Assembly (NCBI RefSeq): GCF_040054535.1
Contig: NC_090783.1
Span: 7,274,001-7,338,000, forward strand
Reading direction: 5' to 3'
Length of the DNA stretch: 64,000 bases
Origin: Antennarius striatus
Lineage: Eukaryota > Chordata > Actinopteri > Lophiiformes > Antennariidae
A model generated the notes under the pieces. The model was not told where the DNA came from. It worked only from the letters and a program-made list of their open reading frames with translations, and searched no databases. Both the position numbers and the translations under genes were made by a program. This document shows, piece after piece, positions 11,063 through 60,200 of the stretch; within the stretch, counting starts at the first letter, position 1; the number at the start of each line of letters is the position of its first letter.

Positions 11063-19578
<8,516 letters not shown>

Positions 19579-20591: not shown

Positions 20592-21194
20592 ATGAATATC
20601 TTGGGAGCAGTGTTTATTATTCTGGCAAGCTGTCTACAATGTGTTTCTGCTGACTGCGACCCTGAACCTCCACCAGAGGTCTTGCCAGACAATGGTGCTC
20701 TGTATGCAGCCTGTAAAATGAGACCCAGTTCTAAACTGGATGAGGATCTGCCCCAAGTGTATGGTCAGGTGCTGTTTAAGGAAGATTATCCCAAAGGAAA
20801 GCTCAAAGTCCTCCTTCAGATCAATGGTTTCCCCACAGACCATGATCCTGGGCTGAAAGCGGTCCACATTCATCAATACGGAGACCTGAGCCATGGGTGT
20901 GGTTCAACTGGAGGCCACTACAATCCACTTGGAGTAGTTCACCCCAACCACCCTGGAGACTTTGGAAACTTTGCGGTTCACAAAGGAGAAATCATCGCTA
21001 TGATACAATCTAATGCAACGCTGTTTGGAAGATTGTCTGTTATTGGAAGAGCGGTGGTGATCCATGAAAAACAAGATGACATGGGAAAAGGTGGGGACGC
21101 TGGAAGCCTGCTGAATGGGAATGCTGGGAGAAGACTGAGCTGCTGCGTCATTGGAATTTCTTCCTCAAGCCTCTGGGACACTAGCCTTAATTAG
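20592..21194 (+). CDS. sod3: extracellular Cu/Zn superoxide dismutase, copy 1
   Basis: The single main coding exon (acceptor before 20588) encodes 200 residues from the internal ATG. It converts superoxide to hydrogen peroxide and oxygen in the extracellular space. A hydrophobic signal peptide ends near CVSA (residue about 21). All metal ligands are visible: HIH (residues 92 and 94), GGHYNP, VVHPNH, HPGDFGN and VVIHE. The disulfide cysteines (SHGC and LSCC) and the active-site arginine (NAGRRL) are present. One N-glycosylation site (NAT) corresponds to that in mammalian SOD3. The C-terminus (SSSLWDTSLN) lacks the basic heparin-binding tail of mammalian SOD3. It is the copy closest to dhx15 and least like the other two. 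Confidence 0.93.
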   Translation: MNILGAVFIILASCLQCVSADCDPEPPPEVLPDNGALYAACKMRPSSKLDEDLPQVYGQVLFKEDYPKGKLKVLLQINGFPTDHDPGLKAVHIHQYGDLSHGCGSTGGHYNPLGVVHPNHPGDFGNFAVHKGEIIAMIQSNATLFGRLSVIGRAVVIHEKQDDMGKGGDAGSLLNGNAGRRLSCCVIGISSSSLWDTSLN

Positions 21195-22813: not shown

Positions 22814-23200
22814 GTGAGTGGGCTGTTTGACGTGATTTACACGGAGAAAAAGGTCCTCTTTGGAGCTCCTCATATCCGTGGATCATTTTTAGTAACGTTT
22901 CATAATATTTGGGGTATGGGGTATTTTACATAAATATTCGACATTATTGTTTACTTAGTTTTTCAGTGGAGAAAGTAAAGCTTTTTACTTCAGCGGTGTT
23001 TGTTTGTTTTGCTACTCAGCATTTTTGCAGTAGGTGGAAGTTTAGAACTTTTTACCTCTATAATGAGTTTATTTAAAAACGTTTAACATGACAATCTTGC
23101 ACAATTCAACGATTAGCCAAGTTCTATTCCACCGTTAATCATTAATTCTTAGGGTGCACAAAAATGCAGCAGCACTTCGTATTCTTGCAAAGTTGCTTAA

Positions 23201-23399
23201 GTAGATTGTGTCAAATCAGTAGATTGTCTAAAATCAGTAGATTGTGTCAAATCAGTAGATTGTCTAAAATCAGTAGCTTGTGTCAAATCAGTAGATTGTC
23301 TAAAATCAGTAGATTGTGTCGAATCAGTAGATTGTCTAAAATCAGTAGATTGTGTTGAATCAGTAGATTGTGTAAAATCAGTAGATTGTGTCATATCAG
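23201..23399. repeat. 18-bp minisatellite with 36-bp higher-order period in sod3 copy 2 intron
   Basis: Eleven units of GTAGATTGTGTCAAATCA or GTAGATTGTCTAAAATCA follow each other. The first eight alternate strictly between the two forms, giving a 36-bp higher-order unit; the last three are mixed variants. It lies in the intron between the first and main exons of sod3 copy 2. Because 18 is a multiple of three, both strands stay open, but the repeat is not coding. Confidence 0.95.
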
Positions 23400-24766
23400 A
23401 ATAACAATCAGCATTTCTTGGAACAGATTTTGGACTACAAATTATTACCCAAAAGAAAGAAACTGGGGGGTATATGTGACGACCACATTTCTCAGGTGAT
23501 ACAACTGCAGGTACATTTTTCTCTGTGGGGTATTAGTGTGTTCACATTTGCACTCATCATCATTATGTTCTGATTGACCTAAAGGGAATCATTGACCCTG
23601 ACAACTTCTACAATAACAGGATAGACAATAGTTGTTGCTACACCAAAGACCAGTGCAACAAAATCACTTCAATAGTAAGAGCCTTTACAACAGTTATGGG
23701 GCATTATTGATTACATTCAACATCATCGCAGTGTCAGAAACATGGATTAATGAAATAAAGACTTGGATTCCTGCTTGGAGAAATCCATGTCTTTATTTCA
23801 TCAAGTTTGAGACTTTAAAGAGCAAGTTGATATCTGTTGATAATATAATGTGTAACTGTTGAAGTGTCTGTGACAAACTGGTAATTATTGGATAAACACT
23901 GTCTGTCTGAAGAGGGAGGTTAATACAATCATTATATTTTTGTCGAGAACACTGTCAAGATAACCTTGTTTTGAACATCTATAATGTGAACATGCCTTGT
24001 TGTTCCTTGGAAGAATGTTAATTAAGCTCAAAGTTACATCTGGAACGAAGGCTAATATCTGGAGTTGGAGAAAATTGGATGTAAGATGTTATGACTGATA
24101 AGAGAATGGATGGTTGAAAAAACAATGTGCCACAGGGACTGTCAAAATTCAATGTATGAAATTGTTGAAAATGTATTGTGATGAGAGAAGTGTTTAAATT
24201 GAACTCTGGGTTAATGAACTATCAAAGCCAGACAGATTCTACCCATCAGCCCTTTTTTTCCCCTGGATGTTGTTGATGTTGCAAGTGAGATGAAGGTGGG
24301 GAACACTGCTGTGATAACATGTTCAAAAAATAAAATAAAATAAATCACAACAGTAATTCTCCCACTAATGGACCTTAGTAGGCTGATTGCCACGATCCTG
24401 GGTTGTTACGTGTGATCCACGTGTGAGCATGGACAGTCTTTCACCACTGTGGCATAATTAGTCCTGACTTATCTGACATCTCGTCTTTTGGACTGTTTGT
24501 CCCACAAGACCAAGGTCATGTTAATCAACTTCCATGTTGGCTTTATACCAAAACCTTTTCTACATACAGATGTACAGAATTTCACAATAAATAAAAGCTA
24601 TTCTCAAAGTGGACCAAAAAAAAAGAGTGGTGCTGCAATATTAGACACTAGTATTGTATGAAAATCACGTTTACATGAAGAATTAATGTTTACTAAAATT
24701 TGAACATGCATGGATTAAGAATTTCCAAGGCTTTCTCTCCTAATGGTTTTAATTTCTTTCAGATCA

Positions 24767-25378
24767 ATGAATATGTTGGGAGCAGTGCTGATTGTTCTGG
24801 CAGGCTGTCTACAATGTGTCTCTGCTGACAGCAACACTGAGGCTCCACCAGAGGTCTTGGAGAACAATGGCACTTTTTATGCGGCCTGTAAAGTGAGACC
24901 CAGCTCCACACTGGCTCCCGGTCTGCCCAAGGTGTATGGCCAGGTGTTGTTTAAGCAACATTTTCCTGACGGTATCCTTCAAGTTCGTGTAAGCATCAAT
25001 GGCTTCCCCGCAAATAGTGACATTCAGCTCCAAGCGATGCACATCCATCAATATGGAGACTTGAGCCGCGGGTGTGTCTCGACCGGTGGCCATTACGATC
25101 CATTTGGTGATGATCACCCTGAACACCCTGGAGACTTTGGAAACTTTGAGACTCAGAAAGGAAAGATCAACGCAGTAATACAATCTAATGCCACGCTGTT
25201 TGGAAAATGGTCTGTAATCGGAAGAGCAGTTGTGATCCATGAAAAACATGATGATATGGGGCTAGGTGGAGACGCCAGGAGCCTGTTGCACGGAAATGCA
25301 GGACCCAGACTCGGCTGCTGCATTATCGGAATCTCCCCCCCCAGTCATTGGAACACGAGGAGCCTGAGGAGATATTAA
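24767..25378 (+). CDS. sod3: extracellular Cu/Zn superoxide dismutase, copy 2
   Basis: The main exon (acceptor ends at 24762) encodes 203 residues from the internal ATG. The signal peptide is MNMLGAVLIVLAGCLQCVSA. All copper and zinc ligands are kept: HIH at residues 92 and 94, GGHYDP, DDHPEH, HPGDFGN and VVIHE. Disulfide cysteines, the active-site arginine (NAGPRL) and an NAT glycosylation site are present. The tail is SHWNTRSLRRY, which has a few arginines but no long basic heparin-binding segment. It is much closer to copy 3 than to copy 1. The enzyme should be active on its residues. Its upstream TATA box looks degraded relative to copy 3. Confidence 0.92.
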   Translation: MNMLGAVLIVLAGCLQCVSADSNTEAPPEVLENNGTFYAACKVRPSSTLAPGLPKVYGQVLFKQHFPDGILQVRVSINGFPANSDIQLQAMHIHQYGDLSRGCVSTGGHYDPFGDDHPEHPGDFGNFETQKGKINAVIQSNATLFGKWSVIGRAVVIHEKHDDMGLGGDARSLLHGNAGPRLGCCIIGISPPSHWNTRSLRRY

Positions 25379-25536
25379 TCTAACAGAAGTGTTATATGCT
25401 AAAGCTTTAGTGTTTGTATTCAATCTTTCTATTCCATTCTTTGTGTGATGCCACGAAATGTCAGTGAGTCAGTCAAATCTCTCCTGTGTAAATACTGAAC
25501 AGTGGTTTATCAATCCTAGCAGAGGCTTGCTATAAT

Positions 25537-26425
25537 AATGTAAGGGGAGGCACTGACTTCATCATAATCACATTCACAAACATGAACCTACTGTGTAGCT
25601 TAGTCACCATTTAATGAGCAACAGTGAGTGGGTTATGTTTAAATTCTCATCAGAATTATTTACACATACAAACTGTGACACATAAATAAGCACATTTGAT
25701 TAAAAAATCGTTGTTACCTAAATGTTTGTTTATATGTTATGTTTAGTTATGAATGAAGTCCATGCGCAGCTCCTTCTGAAAAAAAGCAAAAAAATTTTGA
25801 GTTGAGATATGTAATCCTCCATTTTTTTAGTAAGGGGAGGCGAGCAGAAAAAACAAATAAATGGCTGCACTTGACTTGCTGCCTACGGATCGTAGCTTGC
25901 TGTCACTTTATTCTGCGGCCGAGGAGTCCCAAGAAAAATCCTTGGGATCACCAGCGCCCCCTACCATGAGGTTGGAGAACTGCATGCCTCACTTACAGCC
26001 TTTTCCCAGTCGTTTCAACTAAAAGACATTAAACACATACAGTTGTTGACAAAAAATACAGTACATTATATACAATAGCTAAATTGTGGAAATTTAGTTC
26101 ATATAGCAAACATGTTCGAACATTTTAATAGCGACATATAGATAGACAGCATTACAGTCTCACTGTTTAGCTACAGCACAGGAAGCCGAGTCATTGAGTA
26201 ATCCATGGTGAGGCTCAGCTGGCTGGTGTCTCACCACAGGTCTCTTCTCCTAATCTCTTCTCAGTATTGCAGCGGTAAATGTGAAAATTCAGCGATTTGG
26301 GGTAAAAATAAGCTTATAATGCACATCACTGGATAAATATAACCATTTAATTTATTTCTTCCATTTTCCAGTTTTTTCTTTCATGACAACAAGTGAGGCT
26401 GTGCCTCACCTGCCTCCCCTGACTG
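25537..26425. mobile_element. possible non-autonomous DNA transposon downstream of sod3 copy 2
   Basis: The block starts near GTAAGGGGAGGCACTGAC and ends near GCCTCACCTGCCTCCCCTGAC, an inverted AGGGGAGGC/GCCTCCCCT pair, and it is absent from the same place in the sod3 copy 3 unit. A third AAGGGGAGGCGAGC at about 25831 suggests two elements or an internal repeat. No target duplication was found and the family is unknown. Confidence 0.4.
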
Positions 26426-28199
26426 CACGTCAGTGTGAAATATCTATTTTCACAGAAGCATAGTCACAAAACATCAAATTCCCATGGTAAAGACCCAAAT
26501 CATTTTGATTCTATATGTTGAAAAGGCCAACAGTACTTGGACTACTCCAGCCCTCTCCATAGGAATGGTAGATTCCGCGCCCCTTCTCCCAAGTGGTGCA
26601 GTCCATCTACCCACTGCAGTTGACAGAGATGACAGTGAAGTTTGCAGAGTTCAGTCATTACCCTGATTAAGTTTCAGACCGGTGTTACAGCTATTGTTTA
26701 CAACTGTTGTGTGTCTCCATAGAAATAAACCACACACACAAACTCAGACAGATCTAGTCAGTTATAAGTTACTGTACATCCTGTCAAGCCATTTTGACGC
26801 CAATAAATTGCTCAACCAGACTTCTGGAGTAGCAGTGATTTGATCAGTCACCTCAGTGGTGGGTTGTGATTTCTGGAACCTAAGTTTATGAGAGAAGCCA
26901 TTGTCAGCCTACTCTTTCTTATATCTAAAACATTATATTTGTCATAAATAAATAAATCTTGCATATATTTCTAGCTCACATTCAACACATATACATATGG
27001 CTCTATTTAATTCCGATTTAATTCCTATGTGGTAAACTCATATTTTCACAAGACATAAAAAATGAAGATATCAGTGCTGGTAATCTAATAAATGTTCTGT
27101 AAATTTTGTAAGATCTCTTTATTCACTATTAAATAATGCTTGTACTTCATCGAATATTTGTTAAGAATTCATCTGTCATGGAATCAGATGAAAGCATGGA
27201 TTAAAGAAAATGAAATACTTTGTATAACACTACAATTGTAAAACAAAAACTGTCTTTTCAAAAATACTTTTAAACAAATTCAATAAAAGAACTGAAGGTT
27301 GTTGAATCTGAATGAGGTGACTGCAAGAGTTTGTAATACATTAAGGAAACAGCCTGAAGCTGCTGCTTTGTTTGAAGGTTTGAACACAGTTCAGGGTTGT
27401 CCCCCCCAGGTAAAAATGATCTAGACAGAGATCACACCAGGTAAGTTAGTGAGTGAATAAGAAAAGGAAAGAAGTTAACAATAATGTTATTGATAAGTCA
27501 AACAAGCATACAGTAATGTCATTTTTTGAAAAGACTTTTGTGAATTTTTAAAGGACAGACACACCCACATGTGGAGACATAGAGTGAGGGGGAGAGAGAG
27601 AGACAGAACCACAGAGAGAGCTGGGTTGATGCTCAGACACCATCCAAATACAACAGAACACTAAAAAAATGAAGAAACTACAGGCAGAGGGCAAGTTTCC
27701 TGTTGAAACTTTTCCTACCATGCCTTTCTAGTGAGTCATAAATGGGGATCTGAACTGACTACATTAGTATGAGGCAATATTTTCTTTCAAAGAAAAGCAC
27801 TACAATGTTTTGAACATTGTTCACAATAGCTTCTGTCTTTGCTGACATTGTAATCGATGCAGTGGGATTATGACTGAGGTTTGTGGTCGGGGAGAAGGAA
27901 GGGAGAATATTTGCTGGCAATTCCTGTCTGAGCAATGTTTGTGGATTCTGTTCAGCTGACAGGGGAAATAAAACACCGTGCATCGTATTCTTAAATTTGA
28001 TTTGCAATAAGATTTAATACTGAATATGTGTTTTACACCAGCAGAAATGTCACAAAAATTAAATTCTCGCCTTTGAGTCATGGAAACTCTCACACTGATA
28101 GAGTTACAACAATAAATGGAACTGCATATGGAAATCCCCCAAAGCACACAGACAGTAACATTTTCTCGCATATGAGACAATTGCAATCTTATCATCTAC

Positions 28200-28395
28200 A
28201 GACACTTGTCTGCCTTGCGGGTAACAGGTAGGCTGGAGTCTAATCTATCTGGATACAGACGAGAGGTTGGGTACACCACGGATGAGACATCAGTTCATTG
28301 CAGGGCCACATGAAAGACAAACAAACACACAGGATGACAACCACACCAACGGACAATTTAGTGTGATCAATTCACCTAAGCTGCATGTTTATGTT
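28200..28395 (+). repeat. L2-like LINE 3' segment, copy in unit A
   Basis: Words such as GAGACATCAGTTCATTGCAG and CGGACAATTTAGTGTGATCA are those of a widespread fish LINE 3' region. The same segment lies at 38720-38995 in the other unit, so it was present before the duplication. Here the sequence after it, corresponding to most of ccdc149 exon 12, is missing. Confidence 0.6.
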
Positions 28396-28417
28396 GGTCG
28401 TCACTCACTTTTTTCTG

Positions 28418-28691
28418 ACTTTTCATCACCTGTAAGAGTAGATTTATAAAATATAACCAATAGATGGCCCTCACGCCCTCAGTCAGCTGGGATAGACTCC
28501 AGCTCCCTGTGACCCGCGATAGCGGATGAAGCGGTTGTGAAAATGAATGAATGAATGAACCAACAGATGGTACGACAGACTGATAAGTCAGACACACAGT
28601 CACCATGTTGAGCATTCACCTTCCTCTCTGCGAGACTCTTTTGACTCTTCCTGCTGAGCCTTCGGAATAATGGTGTTGTTTCCTCCTGTTG
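28418..28691 (-). pseudogene. ccdc149: ccdc149 fragment (start of exon 12 and exon 11)
   Basis: A stub of exon 12 (about 28418-28433, reading GTGATGAAAAGTCAG on the minus strand) precedes a full-length 66-base equivalent of exon 11 (28620-28685) with both splice sites kept. Between them is a retroposon tail (about 28455-28558, ending in GAATGAATGAATG) not found in the functional gene. The rest of exon 12 is gone, so no normal C-terminus can be made. It is a by-product of the tandem duplication that created sod3 copies 2 and 3. Confidence 0.85.
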
Positions 28692-30238
28692 TGACAAGAT
28701 TATAATTACATCCAAAGATGCTTCTCCTTCACTCACTTTCGGAGAATGTAGCCTTGGCCAGGATGAGTTAATGTCATCAGGTGGTAACCAAGTTCATCCG
28801 GTGTTTCAACCCTGAACCACAACACCCTCCCAGTGGTGGCCAAATCACTGCCCGTCTCCTCCCTTGGCTTCCAGCTAAACCCCTTTCTTCTGCTCGATAA
28901 CCAGCAAGAAACTCTCTCTGCTGCCTCCCTCATCCTGCGAGCTGCTGTTTTTCTCTCCCTTCCTGTCATTCCAATGGCTGTGAGCATCCTCTACGCTGAC
29001 TGAGCAGTGAATCCTCTACAGCTGACCTCAACTGGGCCTGCCATCTTTTCCCCCTGCAGTCATGTGAGAGATCCCGGTATTTGGTGTTCTTTCTCTCTAA
29101 CGCCTGCTCACAACCCTCTTCCCATGGGACTGTAAGTTCTATGAGGATGATGTTGCCTGTTCAGACCACATGACCACATCTGGCCTCAGGGTTGTCTGGA
29201 CAACCTGGGGGAATTGCAGTCTTCCCCCCAGGTCTACCTCTATTTCCCATGATTGGGCATTTTGTAGCAGGTTGCTTCTTGTTGTTACTGTGGTGGGTGG
29301 CTTTTCTTCCTACCGAACAAACTTAATAGATCGCATTGTTTTCATTGTTGTGGTTTCTCGCATCTCTCCTGCTACAGAGCATTAGCAAGTGTCATGAGCA
29401 TCTTGTCCTGACACCACCTGTATCTTCATTGGGCAGGATGACAGAATGTGCGCCATGGTACCGCTCTCACCGTACAGCTTGCACAGTGGGTCCTCCCTCA
29501 AGCCCCATTTGTGTTAGTTTGTCTGTGCCAGCAGTGTCATACACCAATCTTAGCAGGAAGGAGATGTGGAAAAGCTCCAATCTCCATAGATCTGCCCGTG
29601 TGATCTTCCACTTTGGTAGGTCCCATTTGGCCCATGCTCCCTGGGACGCTAGCTCCGCTGCTTTTGCCCTTCAACTTTCCTCCTTCAGGCTTTGTACTTC
29701 CACCTGGATCGTGGCCCTTTGGTCCTTGGTTCCTGTCTTCCCCCTGTGCATGGTGTACCAGTGATGCCACGTACCTGCAACATACTTTCAGCTTGTGCAA
29801 CAGACAAGTCACCTGCCCAGTTGTGTCCAGATCTTGTGAGGATGCCTGCCTGTCTGACTTGTTTGTTCTGGGAGTCTCTGTATGTCACTGAGACTGTGCA
29901 CTTGGCTACCTTAAATTCCTCCACCATGGACAACAGAGGAAGTTGGAGCTGCCCTAATCTTATATACAAGCCAACTGAAGTGAAGCTTGGAGGGATTCCT
30001 AACCATATTTGGAGGTACTTATTGATCTTCCTCTCCACTTCTTCCACGCTCGTTATTGGAACTTCATACACTGTCATCAGCCCCATGCGGCTTGGCAGCA
30101 ATCCATGCTGATAAAGCCATGCTTTGAACTTCCCTGAGAGCCCTGATTTCTCAATTCTTCTCAGCCCTTCCTCTGTCTGCTTTTCTGAACTTGTGACGCT
30201 GTTCCTGTCAGCAAGTGAGTCATCAAATCACTTTCTGA

Positions 30239-30706
30239 GGCACTTAGATTATCCTCCATCGATGGAATCCCTTCTCCTTGTACCTGCAGCTTGACCCTGT
30301 TTATTAATTTACCTTTCCTGATCACCATTGCCCTGGATTTCACGGGCTTAAATTTCATTCTGGTCCATGTTGCCAGAACTGTTAGCATCCACCTCACCTC
30401 CACAAGTTGTGGTCATCACTGTAAGGTCATCCACATAACCTCTTATTCGGGGTTGTTGGACGCCCGATTCCATATTGGGGCCTTAAGCTTTCTTCCCAGC
30501 AGCTGCTGTTAGGAGGTTTATACCCATGATGAAGAGGATGGGGGAGAATGTACAGCCAGTCATGATTCCCTTTTCCAGAGTTTGTCACTGTGTTGTAAAA
30601 TAGGCAGTTTTGAATTGTAGCTGGATTCCGCCACAGTAGCTCATGATCAATCCCTTGATGTGCTGAGGGATGAGATAATGCTCTAGTGCTGCATGGATGA
30701 GGGTGT
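30239..30706 (-). repeat. direct repeat A, copy 1 (LINE segment)
   Basis: 468 bases, matching 31540-32007 with about two differences that I could find. Together the copies flank the 829-base block X (30710-31538). The segment encodes part of the LINE reverse transcriptase on the minus strand. Confidence 0.92.
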
Positions 30707-30709
30707 CAG

Positions 30710-31538
30710 CCTCGTCTGTCAGCCTGTCCATCACCATAGCGAACAAGAAGGGGCTCAGAGCTGATCCCTGATGCAGTCCCACCTCCACCTTGAACTCCTC
30801 TGTCACACCTACAGCACACCTCACCACTGTCTCACAGTCCTCATACATGTCCTGCACCATTCTAACATACTTCTCTGCCACTCCAGACTTCCTCATACAA
30901 TACCACAGTTCCTCTCTGGGCACCCTGTCATAAGCTTTCTCCAGATCTACAAAAACACAACTCAGCTCCGTTTGGCCTCCTCTGAATCAAGTGATTTAGA
31001 ATGAAGCACTTATTTCATGGGTGGATTTGAGGAAACCTTGTTTTTAACTTAAGAATGGGTTTCACTCAATGGCATCAGGTTTTACCAAACAGACGTCTCA
31101 ACACCAAAGAACCACTAATCTAAACTATGTCTGGGAGGCTCTTTTCATTGAAACATTTCCTCCCTCTACAGGCAAAGCAGAGTGACCCTGTCTTGTTTAA
31201 GTGATTGGTTTCTGCTGTCTGATTAGAACGCTCTGACATTTGAGACTTACAATTTATCACCCAGATCTTGAGTGCATGGGGAACAGGACATTCAGTTACA
31301 TATGAGAATACGCAGAACCATAAATTTAAATGATATAACTCCATCACATAAGCTGAACATTGAATGAGCCTTTAAAGCATAGTTATATGTATAAAATGAT
31401 TACATGATTGAGCAAGTATTGCTTATTTAACTAGGTTACTTATATGTTAAGTTTTGTCTGATTGACTAAATAACATACTCACTTTGAAGACTGTAAAGAC
31501 TATTGTGACTAAAGACTTGCAAAAACTGCAAATTTTTG
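30710..31538. repeat. block X: transposed copy of 34795-35623
   Basis: 829 bases with the same length and only a few differences from 34795-35623. The source block spans the 5' part of the RTE-like LINE, a piece of ccdc149 intron 9, the duplication junction and sod3 copy 3 upstream sequence. Because it covers several unrelated origins it cannot be a normal transposon; it is a segmental copy. The near identity means it is recent. Confidence 0.92.
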
Positions 31539-31539
31539 G

Positions 31540-32007
31540 GGCACTTAGATTATCCTCCATCGATGGAATCCCTTCTCCTTGTACCTGCAGCTTGACCCTG
31601 TTTATTAATTTACCTTTCCTGATCACCATTGCCCTGGATTTCTCGGGCTTAAATTTCATTCTGGTCCATGTTGCCAGAACTGTTAGCATCCACCTCACCT
31701 CCACAAGTTGTGGTCATCACTGTAAGGTCATCCACATAACCTCTTATTGGGGGTTGTTGGACGCCCGATTCCATATTGGGGCCTTAAGCTTTCTTCCCAG
31801 CAGCTGCTGTTAGGAGGTTTATACCCATGATGAAGAGGATGGGGGAGAATGTACAGCCAGTCATGATTCCCTTTTCCAGAGTTTGTCACTGTGTTGTAAA
31901 ATAGGCAGTTTTGAATTGTAGCTGGATTCCGCCACAGTAGCTCATGATCAATCCCTTGATGTGCTGAGGGATGAGATAATGCTCTAGTGCTGCATGGATG
32001 AGGGTGT
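31540..32007 (-). repeat. direct repeat A, copy 2 (LINE segment)
   Basis: Second copy of the 468-base LINE segment at 30239-30706. Past its right end the LINE continues (reading GVVWLDLANA on the minus strand), so this side is the natural junction and the copy 1 side meets block X. Confidence 0.92.
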
Positions 32008-33986: not shown

Positions 33987-35069
33987 CTTCTTTTCCTTTC
34001 GGCTTTTCCCTCCAGGGGCCGCCACAGCAAATCAATTGCCTCCATCTAACCCTGTCCTTTGCATTTTCTTCTCTCACACCAACTACCTTCATGTCCTTTC
34101 ACTACATCCATAAACCTCCTCTTTGGTCTTCCTCGAGGCCTCCTGCCTGGCAGTTCAAAACTCAGCATCCTTCTACCAATATATTCACTATCTCTCCTCT
34201 GGATATGTCCAAACCATCTCAGTCTGGTCTCTCTGACTTTATCTCCAAAACTTCTAACATGTGCTGTCCCTCTGATGTACTCATTCCTGATCCTATCCTT
34301 CCTGGTCACTCCCAGAGAGAACCTCAGCATCTTCATCTCTGCTACCTCCAGCTCTGTCTCCTGTCTTTTCTTCAGTGACACTGTCTCTAGACCAAACAAC
34401 ATCGCTGGTCTCACCACAGTTTTGTACACCTTTCCTTTCATTTTAGCTGAAACTCTTCTATCACACATCACACCTGACACTTTCCTCCACCCATTCCATC
34501 CTGCCTGTACACGCTTCTTCACCTCTTTTCCACACGCTCCATTGCTCTGGACTGTTGAGCCTAAGTACTTAAAATCCTCCACCTTCTTGATCTCTTCTCC
34601 CTCTAACCTCACTCTTCCACTTGGGTCCCTCTCATTCACATGCATGTACTCTGTCTTACTGCGGCTAACCTTCATTCCTCTCCTTTCCAGGACAAACCTC
34701 CACCTCTCTAGCTTCTCCTCCACCTGTTCCCTGCTCTCACTGCAGATCACAATGTCATCTGCAAACATCATAGTCCATGGAGATTCCTGTCTAACCTCGT
34801 CTGTCAGCCTGTCCATCACCATAGCGAACAAGAAGGGGCTCAGAGCTGATCCCTGATGCAGTCCCACCTCCACCTTGAACTCCTCTGTCACACCTACAGC
34901 ACACCTCACCACTGTCTCAGAGTCCTCATACATGTCCTGCACCATTCTAACATACTTCTCTGCCACTCCAGACTTCCTCATACAATACCACAGTTCCTCT
35001 CTGGGCACCCTGTCATAAGCTTTCTCCAGATCTACAAAAACACAACTCAGCTCCGTTTGGCCTCCTCTG
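33987..35069 (-). mobile_element. RTE-like LINE, 5'-truncated, with 18-bp target duplication
   Basis: The plus-strand flanks AATCAAGTGATTCAGAAT (33969-33986) and AATCAAGTGATTTAGAAT (35070-35087) are the duplicated target, which is ccdc149 intron 9 sequence (compare 40690-40707). Inside, a 320-codon minus-strand frame (34046-35008) encodes the end of a reverse transcriptase: [11 protein letters not shown], the catalytic MMFADDIVI, FKYLGSTVQ and a C-terminal [29 protein letters not shown] segment lies just upstream of its Met. The N-terminal endonuclease is missing. The last part of the C-terminus reads out of the frame kept in the copy at 36324. RTE assignment is from memory. Confidence 0.85.
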
Positions 35070-35087
35070 AATCAAGTGATTTAGAAT

Positions 35088-36146
35088 GAAGCACTTATTT
35101 CATGGGTGGATTTGAGGAAACCTTGTTTTTAACTTAAGAATGGGTTTCACTCAATGGCATCAGGTTTTACCAAACAGACGTCTCAACACCAAAGAACCAC
35201 TAATCTAAACTATGTCTGGGAGGCTCTTTTCATTGAAACATTTCCTCCCTCTACAGGCAAAGCAGAGTGACCCTGTCTTGTTTTAGTGATTGGTTTCTGC
35301 TGTCTGATTAGAACGCTCTGACATTTGAGACTTACAATTTATCACCCAGATCTTGAGTGCATGAGGAACAGGACATTCAGTTACATATGAGAATACGCAG
35401 AACCATAAATTTAAATGATATAACTCCATCACATAAGCTGAACATTGAATGAGCCTTTAAAGCATAGTTATATGTATAAAATGATTACATGATTGAGCAA
35501 GTATTGCTTATTTAACTAGGTTACTTATATGTTAAGTTTTGTCTGATTGACTAAATAACATACTCACTTTGAAGACTGTAAAGACTATTGTGACTAAAGA
35601 CTTGCAAAAACTGCAAATTTTTGAAATACATTTCATGAACACAAAATTCACAAAAGAAATTATGTTATGTACACAACACATTCTTATAGAGCTTAAGCAA
35701 TCAAAGAACTCCAAATTAAAAAGTTAAAATTGATTCTAATATAAATTGCAGAAATAATTAAAACACTCCCTACAAGATATCAGCTGCTGTGTTTCCAGTG
35801 CTTTTACATTTCACTTTTTGATACATACATTGAAGAATAAAACCACATAGATGTGTTTTTATGAAATATTTATCCATCGTAATGTTTGACAGAATTAGGA
35901 AAGTGATAGGCAAACAATTTTAAGAGCAGCACAAATTGCACAAGCTTCTGTTTTATGAACCGTCACGACATTTGAATAAAAACGGAATCAGCTTATCTTG
36001 ATCAGAAAATCAAAAGTAATAAAAGTGCTACCGGCTGATTACGGGCACCACCACCCACGCCCCCCCGCATACCCTCCCACGGACAAAATCGTATAAAAGC
36101 CTGTGGTCTCGACTTTCAGATCATCACTGAAGGTCTGTTCACGCTG
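35088..36146. other. duplication junction and upstream region of sod3 copy 3
   Basis: 35088-35130 still matches ccdc149 intron 9 (40708-40760). After about 35130 the sequence matches the area upstream of sod3 copy 2 (21560 onward). This is the joint between the two tandem units. 34795-35623 is the source of block X. The promoter of sod3 copy 3 lies at the right end, with a TATA box at 36092-36099. Confidence 0.75.
36092..36099 (+). promoter_or_regulatory. TATA box of sod3 copy 3
   Basis: TATAAAAG stands 48 bases before the upper ATG of the first exon. The aligned bases in copy 2 read TACATGAGA. A start site about 30 bases downstream would give a first exon of roughly 40 bases. Confidence 0.65.
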
Positions 36147-36629: not shown

Positions 36630-37329
36630 AGCTTTGTTTTTGTTTTTTCTTGCTACCGGTACTCAGAATTTTGCTGTAGATTGAAATCTAGAACTTGTCA
36701 CCACTATAGTGAGTTTATGTAAAATGCTTATCATGACCATATAAGGCAAGGCTGGAGTTGGAGAAAATTGGATGTAAGATGTTATGACTACACAGATAAG
36801 AGAATGGATGGTTGAAAAAACAATGTGCCACGTGTGATCCACCGTTTGGTCCACTGAGCGTGGACAGTGTTTTCACCACTGTGGCATAATTAGTCCTGAC
36901 CTATCTGACATCTCGTCTTGTGGACTGTTTGTCCCACAAGACCAAGGTCATGTTAATCAAATTCCATGCTGGTTTTTCTCCCTAATTTTCATGCCTTTGT
37001 GAGGATTATGTTAATGAGCAATTTCTCTCAAAACAGTTTTCAGACAGATTACAATACAGAACTCACAAAAATTTGACAAGCATTACCAAACTTCAGTGAG
37101 ATTTATCACAAAACCTTTTCTACAAATAGATGCACAGAATTTCACAATAAATAAAAGCTATTCTCAAAGTGGACCACAAAAATGAGTGTTACTGCTGTGC
37201 TGTAAATCTTTGACACTAGTATTGTATGAAAATCACATTTACATGTAGAGTTATAGCAACATGTAAACATGCATGGATTAAGAATCTACGAGACTTTCTC
37301 TCCTAATGGTTTTAATTTCTTTCAGATCA

Positions 37330-37944
37330 ATGAATATGTTGGGAGCAGTGCTGATTGTTCTGGCAGGCTGTCTACAATGTGTCTCTGCTGACAGCAAAAC
37401 TGAGGCTCCACCCGAGGTCTTGGAGAACAAAGGTAGTTTTTATGCAGCCTGTAAAGTGAGACCCAGCTCCACACTGGCTCCCGGTCTGCCTGAGGTGTAT
37501 GGCCAGGTGTTGTTTAAGCAAGATTTTCCTGACGGTATGCTTGAAGTTCTTGTAAGCATCGATGGCTTCCCCACAAATTGTGCCATTCAGCTCCGAGCGT
37601 TGCACATCTATCAGTATGGAGACTTGAGCCAGGGGTGTGCCTCGACCGGAGACCACTACGATCCATTTGATGATGTTCACCCTGAACACGCCGGAGACAT
37701 TGGAAACTTTGAGCCCCGGAACGGAAAAATCAGTGCAGTGATACAATCTAATGCCACGATGTTTGGAAGATGGTCAGTAATTGGAAGAGCGGTGGTGATC
37801 CATGAAGAAGAAGATGATATGGGGCTAGGTGGAGACGCCGGGAGCCTGTTGCATGGAAATGCAGGAGCCAGACTCGGCTGCTGCATTATTGGAATTTCCC
37901 CCCCCAGCCACTGGAACACGGAGAGACCCAAAATAGTTAATTAA
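37330..37944 (+). CDS. sod3: extracellular Cu/Zn superoxide dismutase, copy 3, copper ligand replaced
   Basis: The main exon (acceptor ends at 37325) encodes 204 residues from the internal ATG, with an intact frame and signal peptide (MNMLGAVLIVLAGCLQCVSA). The copper-binding pair HIH is HIY: codon 94 (37609-37611) is TAT, where copies 1 and 2 have CAT. The other ligands remain (GDHYDP, DVHPEH, HAGDIGN, VVIHE), as do the disulfide cysteines and NAGARL arginine. In Cu/Zn SODs this histidine holds copper directly, so activity should be weak or changed. The tail SHWNTERPKIVN has no heparin-binding run. The open frame argues against a plain pseudogene. It is nearest to copy 2. Confidence 0.9.
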   Translation: MNMLGAVLIVLAGCLQCVSADSKTEAPPEVLENKGSFYAACKVRPSSTLAPGLPEVYGQVLFKQDFPDGMLEVLVSIDGFPTNCAIQLRALHIYQYGDLSQGCASTGDHYDPFDDVHPEHAGDIGNFEPRNGKISAVIQSNATMFGRWSVIGRAVVIHEEEDDMGLGGDAGSLLHGNAGARLGCCIIGISPPSHWNTERPKIVN

Positions 37945-39278
37945 TCTGGTCAAATTTGATCCTGATTAAATATCTGTTTTCACAGAAGCCTGGTCACAAA
38001 ACATCAAATTCTCATGGAAAAGACCCAAATCATTTTGATTATCTAAAACATTTTATTTGGCAGAAATAAATAAATCTTGCACATATTTCTTGCTCACATT
38101 CAACACATATACACGACTCTATTTAATTCCTATGTCGTGAGGTCATGTTTTTACATGAAAACCACAATGAAGATATCAGTGATGATAATCTAATAAATGT
38201 TCTGCAGATTTTGTGAGATCTTTTTATTCACGATTAACTGAAAAATGCTTGTATTTCGTCAAATAATTGTTTAGAAGTCATCTGTCAAGGAATCAGATAA
38301 AAACATGGATAAAAGAAACTGAAATAGTTTGTAATCTTTTAAAAGTGTATTGCAGAGGTGTCAACCTCATTTTTCACTGGGGGCCACATCAGCATAACGA
38401 CTGTCCTCAAAGGGCCACATGTAACTCATAAATTTAACTAAATGTAACTCAATGTAATGTAAAATGAATGTGACTACTCCTTAATGTTAAATAACTCTGA
38501 ATGTATTACTTATTCAAGTTACAAACATTACAGTTGCATCTTATTCTTAAATTTGATTTGCAATTTCAAAAACTGAATCAGTGTTTTGCACCAGCAGAAA
38601 TGTATCACAAATTAAATTCTCACCTTTGAGTCATAGAAACTCTCACACTGGTGGAGCTACAATGAATGAAACCGCATATGGAAATGCCCCAAAGCACACA
38701 AACAGCCCGGGGACTAACATCTATTTTCTCATAGATGAGACAAGACACCAGCTCATTGCAGGGCAACATGAAACACAAACAAACACACAGGCTGACAACC
38801 ACAGCTACGGACAATTTGGCGTGATAAATTCATCTAAGCTGCATGTTTTTGAGATGGGAGAAAGCCAGAAAACCTGGAGAAAACCCACGCGGACATGCAA
38901 ACATACAAACTCCACAAAAAAAGAAAATCAAACCTGGAACGTTCTTGCTGTGAGGAAAATGCGCTTCCCGCTTGTGCCAACATGCCATCAAGGATTTACA
39001 TATCTAAAAAATGTAAAAGGTTGAAGTATGTGAGAATCAAAATTGTTATCATAGATAGTTAAGTGTTCTAAATCATTCATACTACTTTGATCAAGGTTTA
39101 TAAATGAGAAAATGAGCTGTGAAGTTAAAGTTGCTGACACGTCGGTTTGGTTACTTCTTGGATTAAAACAGATGAAATCATTTTGATTTGATAAACAATA
39201 AGAGGTCCTTAGTCTCACTTTCTCCTGACTGAACAACATAAACCGTTTTAAATGCATCCTTCAACCTTTTACATTTTA
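37945..39278. other. region between sod3 copy 3 and ccdc149
   Basis: It holds the sod3 3' flank shared with copy 2 (37960-38260), a hAT-like terminal fragment near 38352-38410 (CAGAGGTGTCAACCTC, GGGGGCCACATCAGCAT) and an L2-like LINE 3' segment (38720-38995). Nothing else coding is seen. The genes sod3 copy 3 and ccdc149 are tail to tail. Confidence 0.65.
38720..38995 (+). repeat. L2-like LINE 3' segment, copy in unit B
   Basis: It contains GACACCAGCTCATTGCAGG, ACCTGGAGAAAACCCACGCG and TTCTTGCTGTGAGG, hallmarks of a common fish LINE 3' region. It matches 28260-28395 in unit A. Confidence 0.65.
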
Positions 39279-45406
<6,128 letters not shown>

Positions 45407-46973: not shown

Positions 46974-49350
46974 TTATAAGCTTAAATCTACAATCACATG
47001 TTCAAAAACTAGTGATTTTCCCTTGAGGCTGGAGGAGAAAATGAAATTCCTCCTGTCAGTGATCACTGCTGTAAATGACCGGGGCGACTGCACATAAATG
47101 TCCTTGAACTTGCGAAATGTTTTTGTGTCCACATCCCAGAGGTAGATTTGTGTGAAAGAATAATCACTGCCCAGCGCGAGGTACTGCCTGCCTGTGAAGG
47201 CGAAGGGTTGGAGAATCATCGCTCCTCGAGAAGGCAGGGCCTGCACCTCAGAAAACTGCTTACTGGCCCACTTGAGTATTTTAGAGTCACCGATATAGCA
47301 AGTCATGGCCAGATACAATTCACCATCCTGTCGGAAGGCTTTCACTGCCACTATGTCATCAACGTATGGGATTTGAATGTGAAGTATGAACTTCTTGGTA
47401 CTCTTGTTCCACAAGAAGATGACAGGTGGCTGAGAGCGACTTGACATGATGAGGTAGGACTTCCCATCCACTGTGACAAACTCGGCATCTGTATCACGAA
47501 ACCACTCGTGGAGAAACTGGTAGGAGTAGAATCCGGTTTCGTTGCGGTCTGGTTGGTCAGTCCACTTGTACAGAGTAGACAAACCAGCCTTGGAGCTGTC
47601 CACAATCACAAAGTACCAGTCACCATCTATTTGGAAGACCTCAATGTCGTTTGGCTTTGAAATGTTGAAAACCTCAATAGTTTGAAACTTTGTGAACTTG
47701 TTTTGCCGGTTGTCAAACTTGTAAATGTGGGAGCCACCAAAGAGCTGAGTAACAATTATCAGGACATGATTGTCTATCAGAATCGACTGACATCCAACGA
47801 CAGACTTCCCTGTGAGGATAGAAAAGTTTTCAGCAACAAAAAGCAACTCGGAAAATTAAAATATAACTATAATTTTGTTGAAATAATTCATTATTGAAAT
47901 ATTCTCTCATATAATGACAATATTCTAAATATTATTGGCTGAAAATATAGAACAGCACAATAATGAATAAAACTAGAAACTTTAGTTTTTAAGTGGTCTG
48001 TTATACCTGTTATATTGTCAAATTTCCTGAAATTCATTTCAATGTGATCCCATTCCATGATTATACAGCTGTTGAAGTTAGGGGCGGCCATCACCACATA
48101 GATGTCCTCTTTGAAGGAGAAGATGTCAGCTGACATGGACTGAATGGGAATGGACTGATGACGCACAAAGTCTGAAAGATGCGGACAAAAACAGAAACCA
48201 CTGACGATGCTGAAAAAACAAGTAAAAAATTTAGAACCTTAAAGCTTTTGTCACGTATTGATCTGAATGCAGGATGCATTCAAATGTTGATATCGTATAC
48301 TAAGTATTTATGAAATACTCACAAAAATGTAAATTGACGTAGTTGTTTTGAAAATGTCATCTTTGTTACAAATTCAGATCTTACATCGTACTCTTTTTCT
48401 CACATGAAGCTAATTTGCAGAGTTAATTAAAATTGTTACAAATCAAAACAATACTTGGAAATACTTTTTTTTTCTTTACTAATACAGTTGAAACTATTGC
48501 GGAAAACACAATTTTTGTAACACTGCAATTCTGTTTTTTCTTTCTTTTTCTTGCTATGCTAGTGGCTTTTTAAAAATGTATTGATATAATTCAACTGTGA
48601 GTTGATTATCGTGAATGGCTCTTCCATGAAACTTGACCCTAAATGCACCCTATTAATAGTATTGCTGATCCACAAATTTATTTTTCAGTGAAATCAAATC
48701 CCACCTGGACTTTCTATGTCGTACTGATTAGCAAATGCTACCAAACCATTCCAAACTCAGGATGAATATGGTTAAAATCAAAATGATTTGTATTTAAAGG
48801 ACAGTACACTAACCATAGCATGTAGCTTACAGCATTCCTGTGCCCAAGACTGTTATTAAGTGCTTAGAAGTGCAGGGTGGTTTCCTGATGAATTATTTAA
48901 TATTGATTTTTTTTCTTTCTTTCTGTGGATCTCTCAGCTTCTACATATAAACATGTCTTTTCCTGCGTACCTGTGGAGATGCACGCGGCCGGGGGAATGG
49001 GAAGGTCATTGAGTCGCTTCCCCTTCAGGTCACTGGGACCTGCGCAGAAGACATCTGATACTGTAGCGTTTGTGTTTTTCAGCCATGTCATGAGCCACTT
49101 GTTCATACAGTCACACTGGAAAGAGTTTCCTCGCAGATCTCTGAATGACAGAAAGAATCCTCTGTCAGGTAGGAACATTTACAGAACAATAAAAGGGAAA
49201 AAACACGAAATCTCCAAAATCTGAACTTTGCAGAAATGGCTATAGATATTAGTTGTTTTTGCTTAATAATGAAGTGTTTCAGTATTCAGCCACAGTATTG
49301 TATATGCTGCCAAACACAAAGTAGTGCCTGGGTCGATTTGCTTAGGATTG

Positions 49351-57258: not shown

Positions 57259-60200
57259 ATGGAAGCAGCGGAGGAAACTCTCACTTATCGAGATGTCACC
57301 GGACTTCACAGGAAGCTGCTCCCCGAGGACAAGACAAAGGACACGGACAGTCAGGACCACGCCACCGAGATTAAAAGTGACGAGTCTAACTATGTGGATT
57401 TGAACATGAAACCGGACGTCACAAAAACAGTGAAAGTAAGTTTCACTGGCGAGGGGAACCAGCTGTCTGTTGGGAAATGTGACAATTCAAAGCAAAGGGA
57501 GCATGAGAGAGAAGAGGAGCCCATGTCAGGGGACTCGGCTGAAGAGCAGTCGGGGGACAGGCGCTCCTCCGTTCCGGGGCCTGTTTCGGATGAGCGTCCT
57601 TTGGAAACTCTGATCGAACTTCCCAGCAGCGATCAGGACTCGGATAACGACAAGCAGCTCCAGACCGAGCTCGACTGCAGTGAACACTTCCGAAGTGAGA
57701 GTGATGAGCTCCAGTACACGGACATGTATCTAAACAGTAAAACGGAGTCTGATGATGGTGCCAGTGCGGTGCTGTCAGACCACTGTGGATCCGACGCCGT
57801 GGAAGACGAGTCTCATTATATCACGACGCACGAAATCCAGTTGACCGAGCTCGATCACGATGTAGATTACGACCTGGGGCGAGGGACGTGTTGGGATTTT
57901 GAAGACAACAATTTGGTCTATTCCTTTGTGGATTATGCGTCTTTTGAAAGCGATGACACGCAGGAGGGGACATTGATACTGGAGGGCAGGAGCCGCGCAA
58001 AAACGCAGTCAAAGCTTGGAGTAGCAGTTCCCAGCACCGAGCAGGAGGATAGTGATCTGTGTGACTCAGACAAATGCGCGAGTTCAGATGAAAGCGTGTG
58101 TGAAAACCAAAGTGGAGACGTAAATAAGGGGGAAATACATTTATCAATAAAAACATCGTCCAGGGCTGTGAACGCACCTGTCAACATCTTTGACAATAAG
58201 ACAGGAGACAGGAGCCATTTCTCTGTTGTGAGCTCTGGCGCCATGGTGGCCCCCCTGTGTGACAGGGCCAAATATTTCATCCCTGCCCCGGGCCGTCAGC
58301 ACCTTGCAACCAAACTAAGACGGAAAGATATCAATGAATATTCCAGCGGGGCGTCCAGTTCCATCAGCGAGCTGGACGACGCCGATAAAGAGGTGCGTAA
58401 TTTAACAGCCAAGTCTTTCCGGAGCTTAGCATGTCCATATTTCGATGCCATTAATCTTAGCACCTCCAGTGAGTCCTCAATGTCGGATTATGGGCTGCAT
58501 AAATGGTCTTCTTACTGGAAGGATGGAAGCATATCAAGAGGAAGAGGACGAGGGGTAATTACGCACAAGTCTTCCAGCGCATCTTTGGAAATGAATAAGA
58601 TTGTGGACAGTAAGATTCATGGTAAGTCTGTTACCGGCATGAAGACTCCACAAACCAAATTGTACTCGCTTAACAAGAGAACAACTCATCAGTCGTCCTC
58701 CTCTAGCGTAAATACTGACCCAAAGCCGAGTGGAATTACGCTCAATGTCCGCTGTAATGTGGAAAAGCATGAAAGCGCCAGGCGTCCAAAATGCTCCAAA
58801 AAACCAAGAGCCAACGAAGATACGAGGACTTTGTTGGCCAGGTCAGGGTGTGAGATGCGATATCATCGCACGGATAGCACAGGGGGTACACACAAAAGGG
58901 CGGTTTTTGCATCGAGTCTGTTGAAAAATGTGATTTCTAAAAAGATGCAGTTTGAACAGGAGCGCAAAATGGAGAGAGGCGAAATTTGTGACACATACCA
59001 AGCAATCTCTCCGTGTTTTCAATTAAAAGATCAAGATGGAATTAAAGACAGGAGTCAAGGAAGAGGCTTCCAAAGACAGCATTCAGAAACAAGCTCAGGA
59101 TTCTCAATGAATTCTGTTGATGATCAGCATCTGGAGGGTAGCAGACCCAATTCCTGCGACCCTAAAGAGGAGTATAAAAGCTACAAAACACCAGATGATT
59201 CAGTTGAGTTGGAACATTCGCCTTTAAAGGCACCACCTAGCCCTGATCAAAATGCTGCTGTCGACTCAATGAAAGAGGATGAACCACAATCTGTAAAAGA
59301 GGCTGAAAGCATATCTGGAAGTGACCCACAGACCACAGACAGAAAGGGATTAGACACAAGCAGCATGCTGACCAAGCTGCTTTTTGTACCAAGCTGGCAG
59401 CTCTTTTCAAAACAGAAGGAATATTCAGAAGATCTGCTAAGTTGTCCTGGTCCACAGAAATGTGAAAAAGAGTTCAAAACAGACAATAATGGAAACATAC
59501 TAGGCAAAGAAGTAAAAGAGAAAACAGGAAAAACCCCTGAGATAAAAATATGCCTTAGAAGTGTAAAAGAAAATAAAGGCTGTACGCTGAATATTGCCAG
59601 TTTGTTAACTCCTAAAATAAGTTACAACACTGTTAACACTTTCAGGATGGCAGGCAATGCAAAGTGTCAAAATTATTTTGCTTCAGATAAAATCCCAAAC
59701 TTCACAGTTAGAGACATAAGAGACACTAAGTGCAAGTTTCAAACACCAATATATAATGTGAGAGATGTCCGTAAATTGGTCAAAAGTTCATATCGATTTG
59801 TTTCTTTGGATAAAAGTGACAGCAAAAGTTCCTCAACAGCTGATAAACTTGAAGAAACTGCCACAAAGGAGTCGATTAAACATTCATTACCATCTCCTAT
59901 AGTAATTAAATGTCACTCTGTAAAAACAAATGCTAAGCAACAGATAGCCGAGGAGTCTGACAAACAAGCAGAGATCCCACTTAAAACATCTCAAAGTGAA
60001 AATACACCATTGCATTGCGTGACTAGCCAGATGTCAAATAATTTAACCAAGCAGGTACATCCTGAGCTGTCAGAACCACATGTTGAAACCAAACTGACAA
60101 GACAGAGGCAAGAGAAGTTTGCAGGTGACCTATCTGAAAAGAAGAATGAACCTAAAATACCTAAGCAGGCTGTGTTAGAGAAGCTTAAAGCTGCTGTCAG

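Follow-up and report, generated by a model that had tools for sequence, protein, structure and literature searches.

Results of our analysis of the window (the whole stretch of 64,000 nucleotides of Antennarius striatus DNA) indicate that the third of its three sod3-like genes, referred to below as copy 3, encodes tyrosine in place of a copper-binding histidine, and that this gene is, on balance, probably a tandem sod3 duplicate with a broken copper site and recent or weak constraint, at an early stage of decay. Early decay had been named as an alternative in the first-pass annotation of this DNA, and it is the alternative that fits best. According to the explanation that we favor, copy 3 would still encode a secreted SOD-type protein, the copper site of which would be broken by the His94 to Tyr change. 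With a bulky aromatic residue at one of the four copper-ligand histidines, copper would be bound poorly or not at all, and since the zinc ligands and disulfide cysteines stay, the product, if made, would most likely be secreted, folded with zinc and a disulfide, copper-poor, and of little or no dismutase activity. The H94Y change may have been tolerated through redundancy, because copies 1 and 2 retain the full site. As to the timing of ligand loss, copy 3 would have been kept as a protein for most of its history and would now be under weak or no constraint, with decay beginning.

Organization of the sod3 Locus

The three sod3-like coding exons form a tandem array, all on the plus strand of the window. 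The features of the array are as follows.

20592-21194, plus strand: sod3-like copy 1, 200 aa, with HIH; the more distant paralogue, used as the outgroup in the analysis
24767-25378, plus strand: sod3-like copy 2, 203 aa, with HIH; the sister of copy 3
37330-37944, plus strand: sod3-like copy 3, a single coding exon of 204 aa and a stop codon (37942-37944), with Tyr94 at a copper-ligand histidine position
36752-40011, plus strand: duplication unit of copy 3, in 9 aligned pieces collinear with the copy 2 unit (24059-28697)
37324-37325, plus strand: AG of a presumed splice acceptor, TTTCTTTCAG followed by ATCAATG, the same in copy 2 by sequence inspection
38065-38070, plus strand: AATAAA motif that follows copy 3, by which a candidate polyadenylation signal is assigned

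The presumed acceptor (CAG followed by ATCAATG) directly precedes the start of each of the three copies. No convincing fourth sod3 copy was found when the three proteins were compared with the whole window by tblastn (next best E value 0.055). By sequence, all three copies belong to the Cu/Zn SOD family, as their scores against the Pfam Sod_Cu profile (PF00080), 94.5 bits for copy 3, 104 for copy 2, and 105.1 for copy 1, pass the curated cut-off of 28.9 bits. The closest PDB match of copy 3 is human SOD3 (2jlp, E value 6.8e-49, residues 32-198 aligned), and this nearest similarity, together with a hydrophobic N-terminus recognized by inspection, is of SOD3 type. At the protein level, copies 2 and 3 are 83.3% identical over 198 residues, and their identity to copy 1 is 66.7-69.5%. 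The tail of copy 3 is short (ending with TERPKIVN) and devoid of the mammal-type basic C-terminal heparin-binding extension; copies 1 and 2 likewise terminate shortly past the SOD domain.

About 1.1 kb directly after the coding end of copy 2 (25358-26437) is without a counterpart at copy 3 (37921-37967), and therefore the 3' ends of these two copies differ. Two pairs of repeats in the spacer between them are nearly identical (30704-31538 and 34788-35623, 99.4% match; 30232-30706 and 31533-32007, 99.2% match), which indicates that recent repeat activity stretched this spacer to about 12 kb. The spacer also contains a 320-aa reverse-transcriptase frame (34046-35008, minus strand; Pfam RVT_1, 68 bits), which is likely a young retroelement fragment. 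Upstream of copy 2 lies a short-period tandem array (23200-23399) whose self-matches are offset by multiples of 18 bp. Elsewhere in the window, a frame at 17485-17913 is presumably DHX15-like, its Pfam match being of low complexity and below the cut-off, and an LGI-type frame with EPTP repeats is present at 46974-47846. Positions 57259-61542 of the plus strand are taken up by one open frame (1427 aa), which contains a DUF4585 domain (86.5 bits) and, as an uninterrupted exon, is unusually long for a vertebrate gene.

The Copper Site of Copy 3

The residues and codons that distinguish or preserve the site in copy 3, numbered from MNMLGA of this copy, are the following.

37609-37611, plus strand: TAT codon of Tyr94; CAT at the same codon in copies 1 and 2
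37579-37581, plus strand: TGT codon of Cys84, a new cysteine; His and Ser in copies 1 and 2
37654-37656, plus strand: His109, the bridging ligand (SOD1 His63), kept, with the copy-3-only change G108D just before it
37801-37803, plus strand: His158, a copper ligand (SOD1 His120), kept according to the alignment
37330-37392, plus strand: codons 1-21, the signal-peptide region, with zero differences from copy 2, synonymous ones included

Direct reading and a script both confirm the earlier observation that residues 92-94 are HIH in copies 1 and 2 (the HIH codons start at 20865 and 25040) and HIY in copy 3, by a change of CAT to TAT. The statement that the lost histidine is a copper ligand also holds, as its column is that of the second His of the H-x-H motif in alignments with human SOD3 and SOD1; we take this column to be SOD1 His48, a direct copper ligand. 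The roles of ligands, cysteines, and the arginine were set from the same alignments and from the SOD1 numbering. A competent Cu/Zn SOD has four copper histidines, and in copy 3 the second of them is Tyr94. The other six metal ligands (H92, H109, H117, H120, D123, and H158) are present, including the complete zinc set (H109, H117, H120, and D123), as are the disulfide cysteines C103 and C184 and the active-site arginine R181. Thus, the frame, signal peptide, disulfide cysteines, and remaining ligands are all intact in the sequence and alignments, in agreement with the first-pass annotation. It is extremely improbable that Tyr94 represents a sequencing error or a rare allele: the difference is a single C to T at one base of one assembly, but the nearby codons differ from those of copy 2 at many sites, and so copy 3 is not a mis-assembled copy 2.

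Besides Tyr94 and Cys84, copy 3 has acquired G108D, G114D, and K160E and has lost the N34 sequon of copy 2. Cys84 lies near the start of the metal-binding strand and, in a secreted protein, may form an additional disulfide or stay as a free thiol. Two of the changes have counterparts in other solved SODs, namely, Asp before the bridging His in 5in2_A and HAGD in 4oja_A. The net charge of the mature protein (K+R minus D+E) is -11 in copy 3 as compared to -1 and -5 in the other two copies, and the fraction of simulations with a charge as low is 0.011 with one ancestor and 0.088 with the other. Of the ten domain changes specific to copy 3, nine (all but L144M) were introduced singly into the domain of copy 2, which scores 105.7 bits against the Pfam profile. 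The effect of H94Y was -4.3 bits, while those of the remaining changes were -1.5 (G108D), -0.7 (K160E), -0.6 (G114D), -0.3 (N78D), -0.1 (F124I), 0 (D85A), +0.4 (K131N), and +1.6 (P121A). H94Y is therefore an outlier in cost, the other eight changes costing at most 1.5 bits. A structure model of copy 3, predicted from an alignment with its two paralogues, was set aside because its mean pLDDT was 32.6.

Among the five SOD chains shown in the alignment, four have His in the column of residue 94 and one, 1jk9_A, has Phe; this chain is presumably yeast SOD1 H48F in complex with the copper chaperone for SOD, the mutation having served to trap that complex. Like copy 3, it carries an aromatic residue in this very column, although, unlike copy 3, it represents a laboratory mutation of a cytosolic enzyme. 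ALS mutations at copper-ligand histidines of SOD1 reportedly, to judge from the title of a paper, diminish copper binding and dimer stability. These effects bear on the possibility, which appears unlikely, that the copper site is altered rather than lost, with Tyr94 or other groups completing it, and confers a weak or different redox activity. Three of the four copper-ligand histidines remain in copy 3, and tyrosine can ligate copper in other enzymes; on the other hand, G108D, G114D, and K160E place acidic residues close to the site and should not help an anionic substrate. Moreover, SOD1 H48F is unable to bind copper, according to an excerpt of PMC5264640, and an aromatic residue at the position of residue 94 is in this respect a known route to copper loss. 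Weak or no dismutase activity of copy 3, as proposed earlier, is likely from its sequence, given that Phe or Gln at the His48 site has been reported to abolish or impair copper binding, and a loss of this activity may also be regarded as likely.

Substitution Rates and Selective Constraint

Over 197 codons, copies 2 and 3 differ by 32 amino acids, of which copy 3 accounts for 11 and copy 2 for 6, with 15 unassignable, and by 18 synonymous codon differences (4 assigned to copy 3, 10 to copy 2, and 4 unassignable); the split of replacement versus synonymous changes between the two copies gives a Fisher P of 0.07. In a free three-branch codon model, the dN/dS values are 0.39 for copy 1, 0.29 for copy 2, and 1.29 for copy 3, with a 95% range for copy 3 that has its lower end between 0.4 and 0.5 and its upper end beyond 8. 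When dS is made equal in copies 2 and 3, the values become 0.38, 0.40, and 0.77 (about 0.4-1.45), respectively. The equal-dS model is not rejected against the free one (2dlnL 1.55) and is the more sensible of the two, because the branches of copies 2 and 3 span the same time; the value of 1.29 results in part from the uneven split of synonymous changes. Positive selection on copy 3 is not claimed.

A dN/dS of 1 is rejected for copy 2 (2dlnL 6.19 in the free model and 5.20 with equal dS), which is under constraint, and is not rejected for copy 3 (2dlnL 0.19 and 0.63, respectively). The proposal that copy 3 makes a stable protein had been coupled with a dN/dS below 1 on its branch, but one estimate lies above 1 and the other below it, and neither differs from 1, with intervals that also extend down to about 0.4. 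This outcome agrees with the dN/dS half of the refutation set out beforehand (a value near 1 together with a lack of expression) and counts against the protein being maintained. The values of 1.29 and 0.77 for copy 3, set beside 0.29 and 0.40 for copy 2, support the reading of early decay, although the difference between the two copies is not significant (2dlnL 3.31 with 11 of 120 parametric bootstrap replicates in the free model, and 2.03 with equal dS), so that a relaxation specific to copy 3 is unproven.

The synonymous divergence of copies 2 and 3 is about 0.147 in the equal-dS model. Their K2P distance in the coding region (0.100, 591 sites) lies between those of the 5' flank (0.077, 424 sites) and the 3' flank (0.126, 835 sites), and no clear gene-conversion tract was called from the sliding identity of these copies. 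Copies 2 and 3 are closest at codons 1-30, with 2 differences in 90 bases, and furthest apart near codons 106-150, with 14-15 in 90 bases; in this latter stretch, copies 1 and 2 are relatively alike.

Traces of Probable Past Constraint

No stop codon, indel, or other frame-breaking pseudogene lesion is present within the coding exon of copy 3 (591 aligned sites). The absence of a stop says little, because 36-56% of simulated frames stay open by chance. In the case of indels, the flanks have 15 gap openings in 1262 sites and the 591 coding sites have none. The number expected in the coding part of one branch is 3.5 (P 0.03), and it rises to 5.4 (P 0.005) when 8 breaks between the aligned blocks are also counted, though the flanks contain repeats and their indel rate may overstate these expected numbers.

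The kind of replacements was evaluated by a neutral test, in which the Pfam score of the copy 3 domain (96.3 bits) was compared with those of domains mutated randomly by an equal number of replacements. Starting from an ancestor biased toward copy 2 (102.8 bits, 22 changes), none of 18 simulations reached copy 3 (range 62.1-90.3), and the same was true of all nine that started from one biased toward copy 3 (102.9 bits, 13 changes; range 74.0-91.6). The weakest design was limited to the 10 unambiguous changes (96.2 bits); here, 2 of 9 simulations scored as high (range 82.7-102.4), and the case for past constraint is therefore not robust in this design. Over the three designs together, the real score is reached by 2 of 36 neutral simulations, and these two are the ones of the weakest design. 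Thus, while no constraint is detectable on the number of replacements, their kind is mild, and past constraint on the SOD fold of copy 3 is likely but not secure. The lack of coding indels and the scores above neutral in the two full designs are the grounds on which this constraint may be extended to most of the history of copy 3.

The same data make it highly improbable that copy 3 is a long-dead pseudogene whose frame is open by chance. Its dN/dS near 1 and the chance of 0.36-0.56 of meeting no stop would suit such a gene, but the lack of indels and a Pfam score above all 27 neutral simulations of the two full designs argue against it. Loss of a ligand is common once constraint is lifted: after 20-36 unconstrained substitutions, one or more of the 7 ligands are gone in 45-65% of the simulated frames that stay open, and among the 18 simulated proteins with 22 changes, 15 are short of one or more of the 10 critical residues, while 7 lose one or none. 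Tyr94 alone therefore gives no indication of a new function.

Possible Retention of an Inactive Protein

Rather unlikely, in our estimation, is that copy 3 has been maintained as an inactive, secreted, zinc-binding protein of SOD fold with a non-catalytic role, for example as a partner of active SOD3 subunits in mixed dimers or tetramers, in matrix binding, or in metal buffering. The absence of indels and stops, the retention of all the other ligands, a signal-peptide region that matches that of copy 2 fully, synonymous sites included, replacements that are milder than those of the neutral simulations in two of the three designs, the more acidic mature protein, and the precedents of leporipoxvirus decoys and Bacillus YojM discussed below are consistent with such a role. 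However, the dN/dS of the copy 3 branch is not below 1, and the significance of the charge shift hangs on the ancestor chosen. A particular form of this idea, in which a copper-free, zinc-bound, more acidic SOD3 with an extra cysteine assembles with active SOD3 subunits into mixed oligomers and, though not catalytic itself, modulates how superoxide is handled outside the cell, seems to us quite improbable.

If copy 3 is merely decaying, its fate is an ordinary one for a tandem duplicate, observed here while the catalytic lesion is still a single one. Should Tyr94 be fixed and the protein produced, copy 3 would provide a secreted vertebrate SOD without a copper site, a natural counterpart of the copper-ligand mutants of SOD1, and would caution against taking additional tandem sod3 genes for additional antioxidant capacity, a practice applied to the expanded sod3 clusters of cold-water fish.

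Comparison with Known Systems

Of the features of human SOD3 (2jlp), copy 3 has kept the signal peptide, the disulfide cysteines, the active-site Arg, and six of the seven metal ligands, and it differs in Tyr at the second copper-ligand His, in the new Cys84, and in its C-terminal tail. Three tandem sod3 copies with signal peptides are also a feature of the blackfin icefish, as opposed to one sod3 gene in typical percomorphs, according to an excerpt of PMC7307600. The icefish duplicates are dated there as recent as about 2.3 Ma; copies 2 and 3, at about 22 Ma by the rate formula of that report, do not match this date, because their synonymous divergence is too great. Ligand loss, present in copy 3, is not mentioned for icefish sod3 in the excerpt. 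No fish sod3 with a lost copper ligand was found in the literature searched, most subscription journals being outside its scope. A search of genome contigs with the alignment of the three copies gave 34 pattern matches and no relative, and a search of viral contigs gave 50 pattern matches and no relative. With a C-terminal part, four loci were found in genome contigs, three with a SOD-like frame carrying HIH and one with an unrelated frame.

The SOD homologues of leporipoxviruses are catalytically inert and bind the copper chaperone for SOD (CCS), as an excerpt of PMC10211241 states. In their inertness they resemble the proposed product of copy 3, but they are viral and target CCS, which copy 3 should not meet because of its signal peptide. 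According to part of PMC8067471, SOD3 acquires its copper along the secretory pathway, without any specific chaperone having been identified, and a decoy mechanism of the leporipoxvirus type is for this reason unlikely for copy 3. For any role that might be retained, mixed oligomers with active SOD3 subunits would be a better candidate than a CCS decoy.

A second precedent is YojM of Bacillus subtilis, like copy 3 a naturally occurring homologue of SOD whose copper site is disrupted; it differs from copy 3 in being bacterial and in the loss of two copper ligands. The absence of these two ligands is announced in the title of the 2005 paper by Banci. One of the replacements in YojM is reportedly a tyrosine. 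Excerpts of PMC10432803 and PMC8382915 describe YojM as a SOD homologue without copper binding or activity, the fold of which is nevertheless kept. SOD homologues with a dead copper site are thus already known, from Bacillus and from leporipoxviruses.
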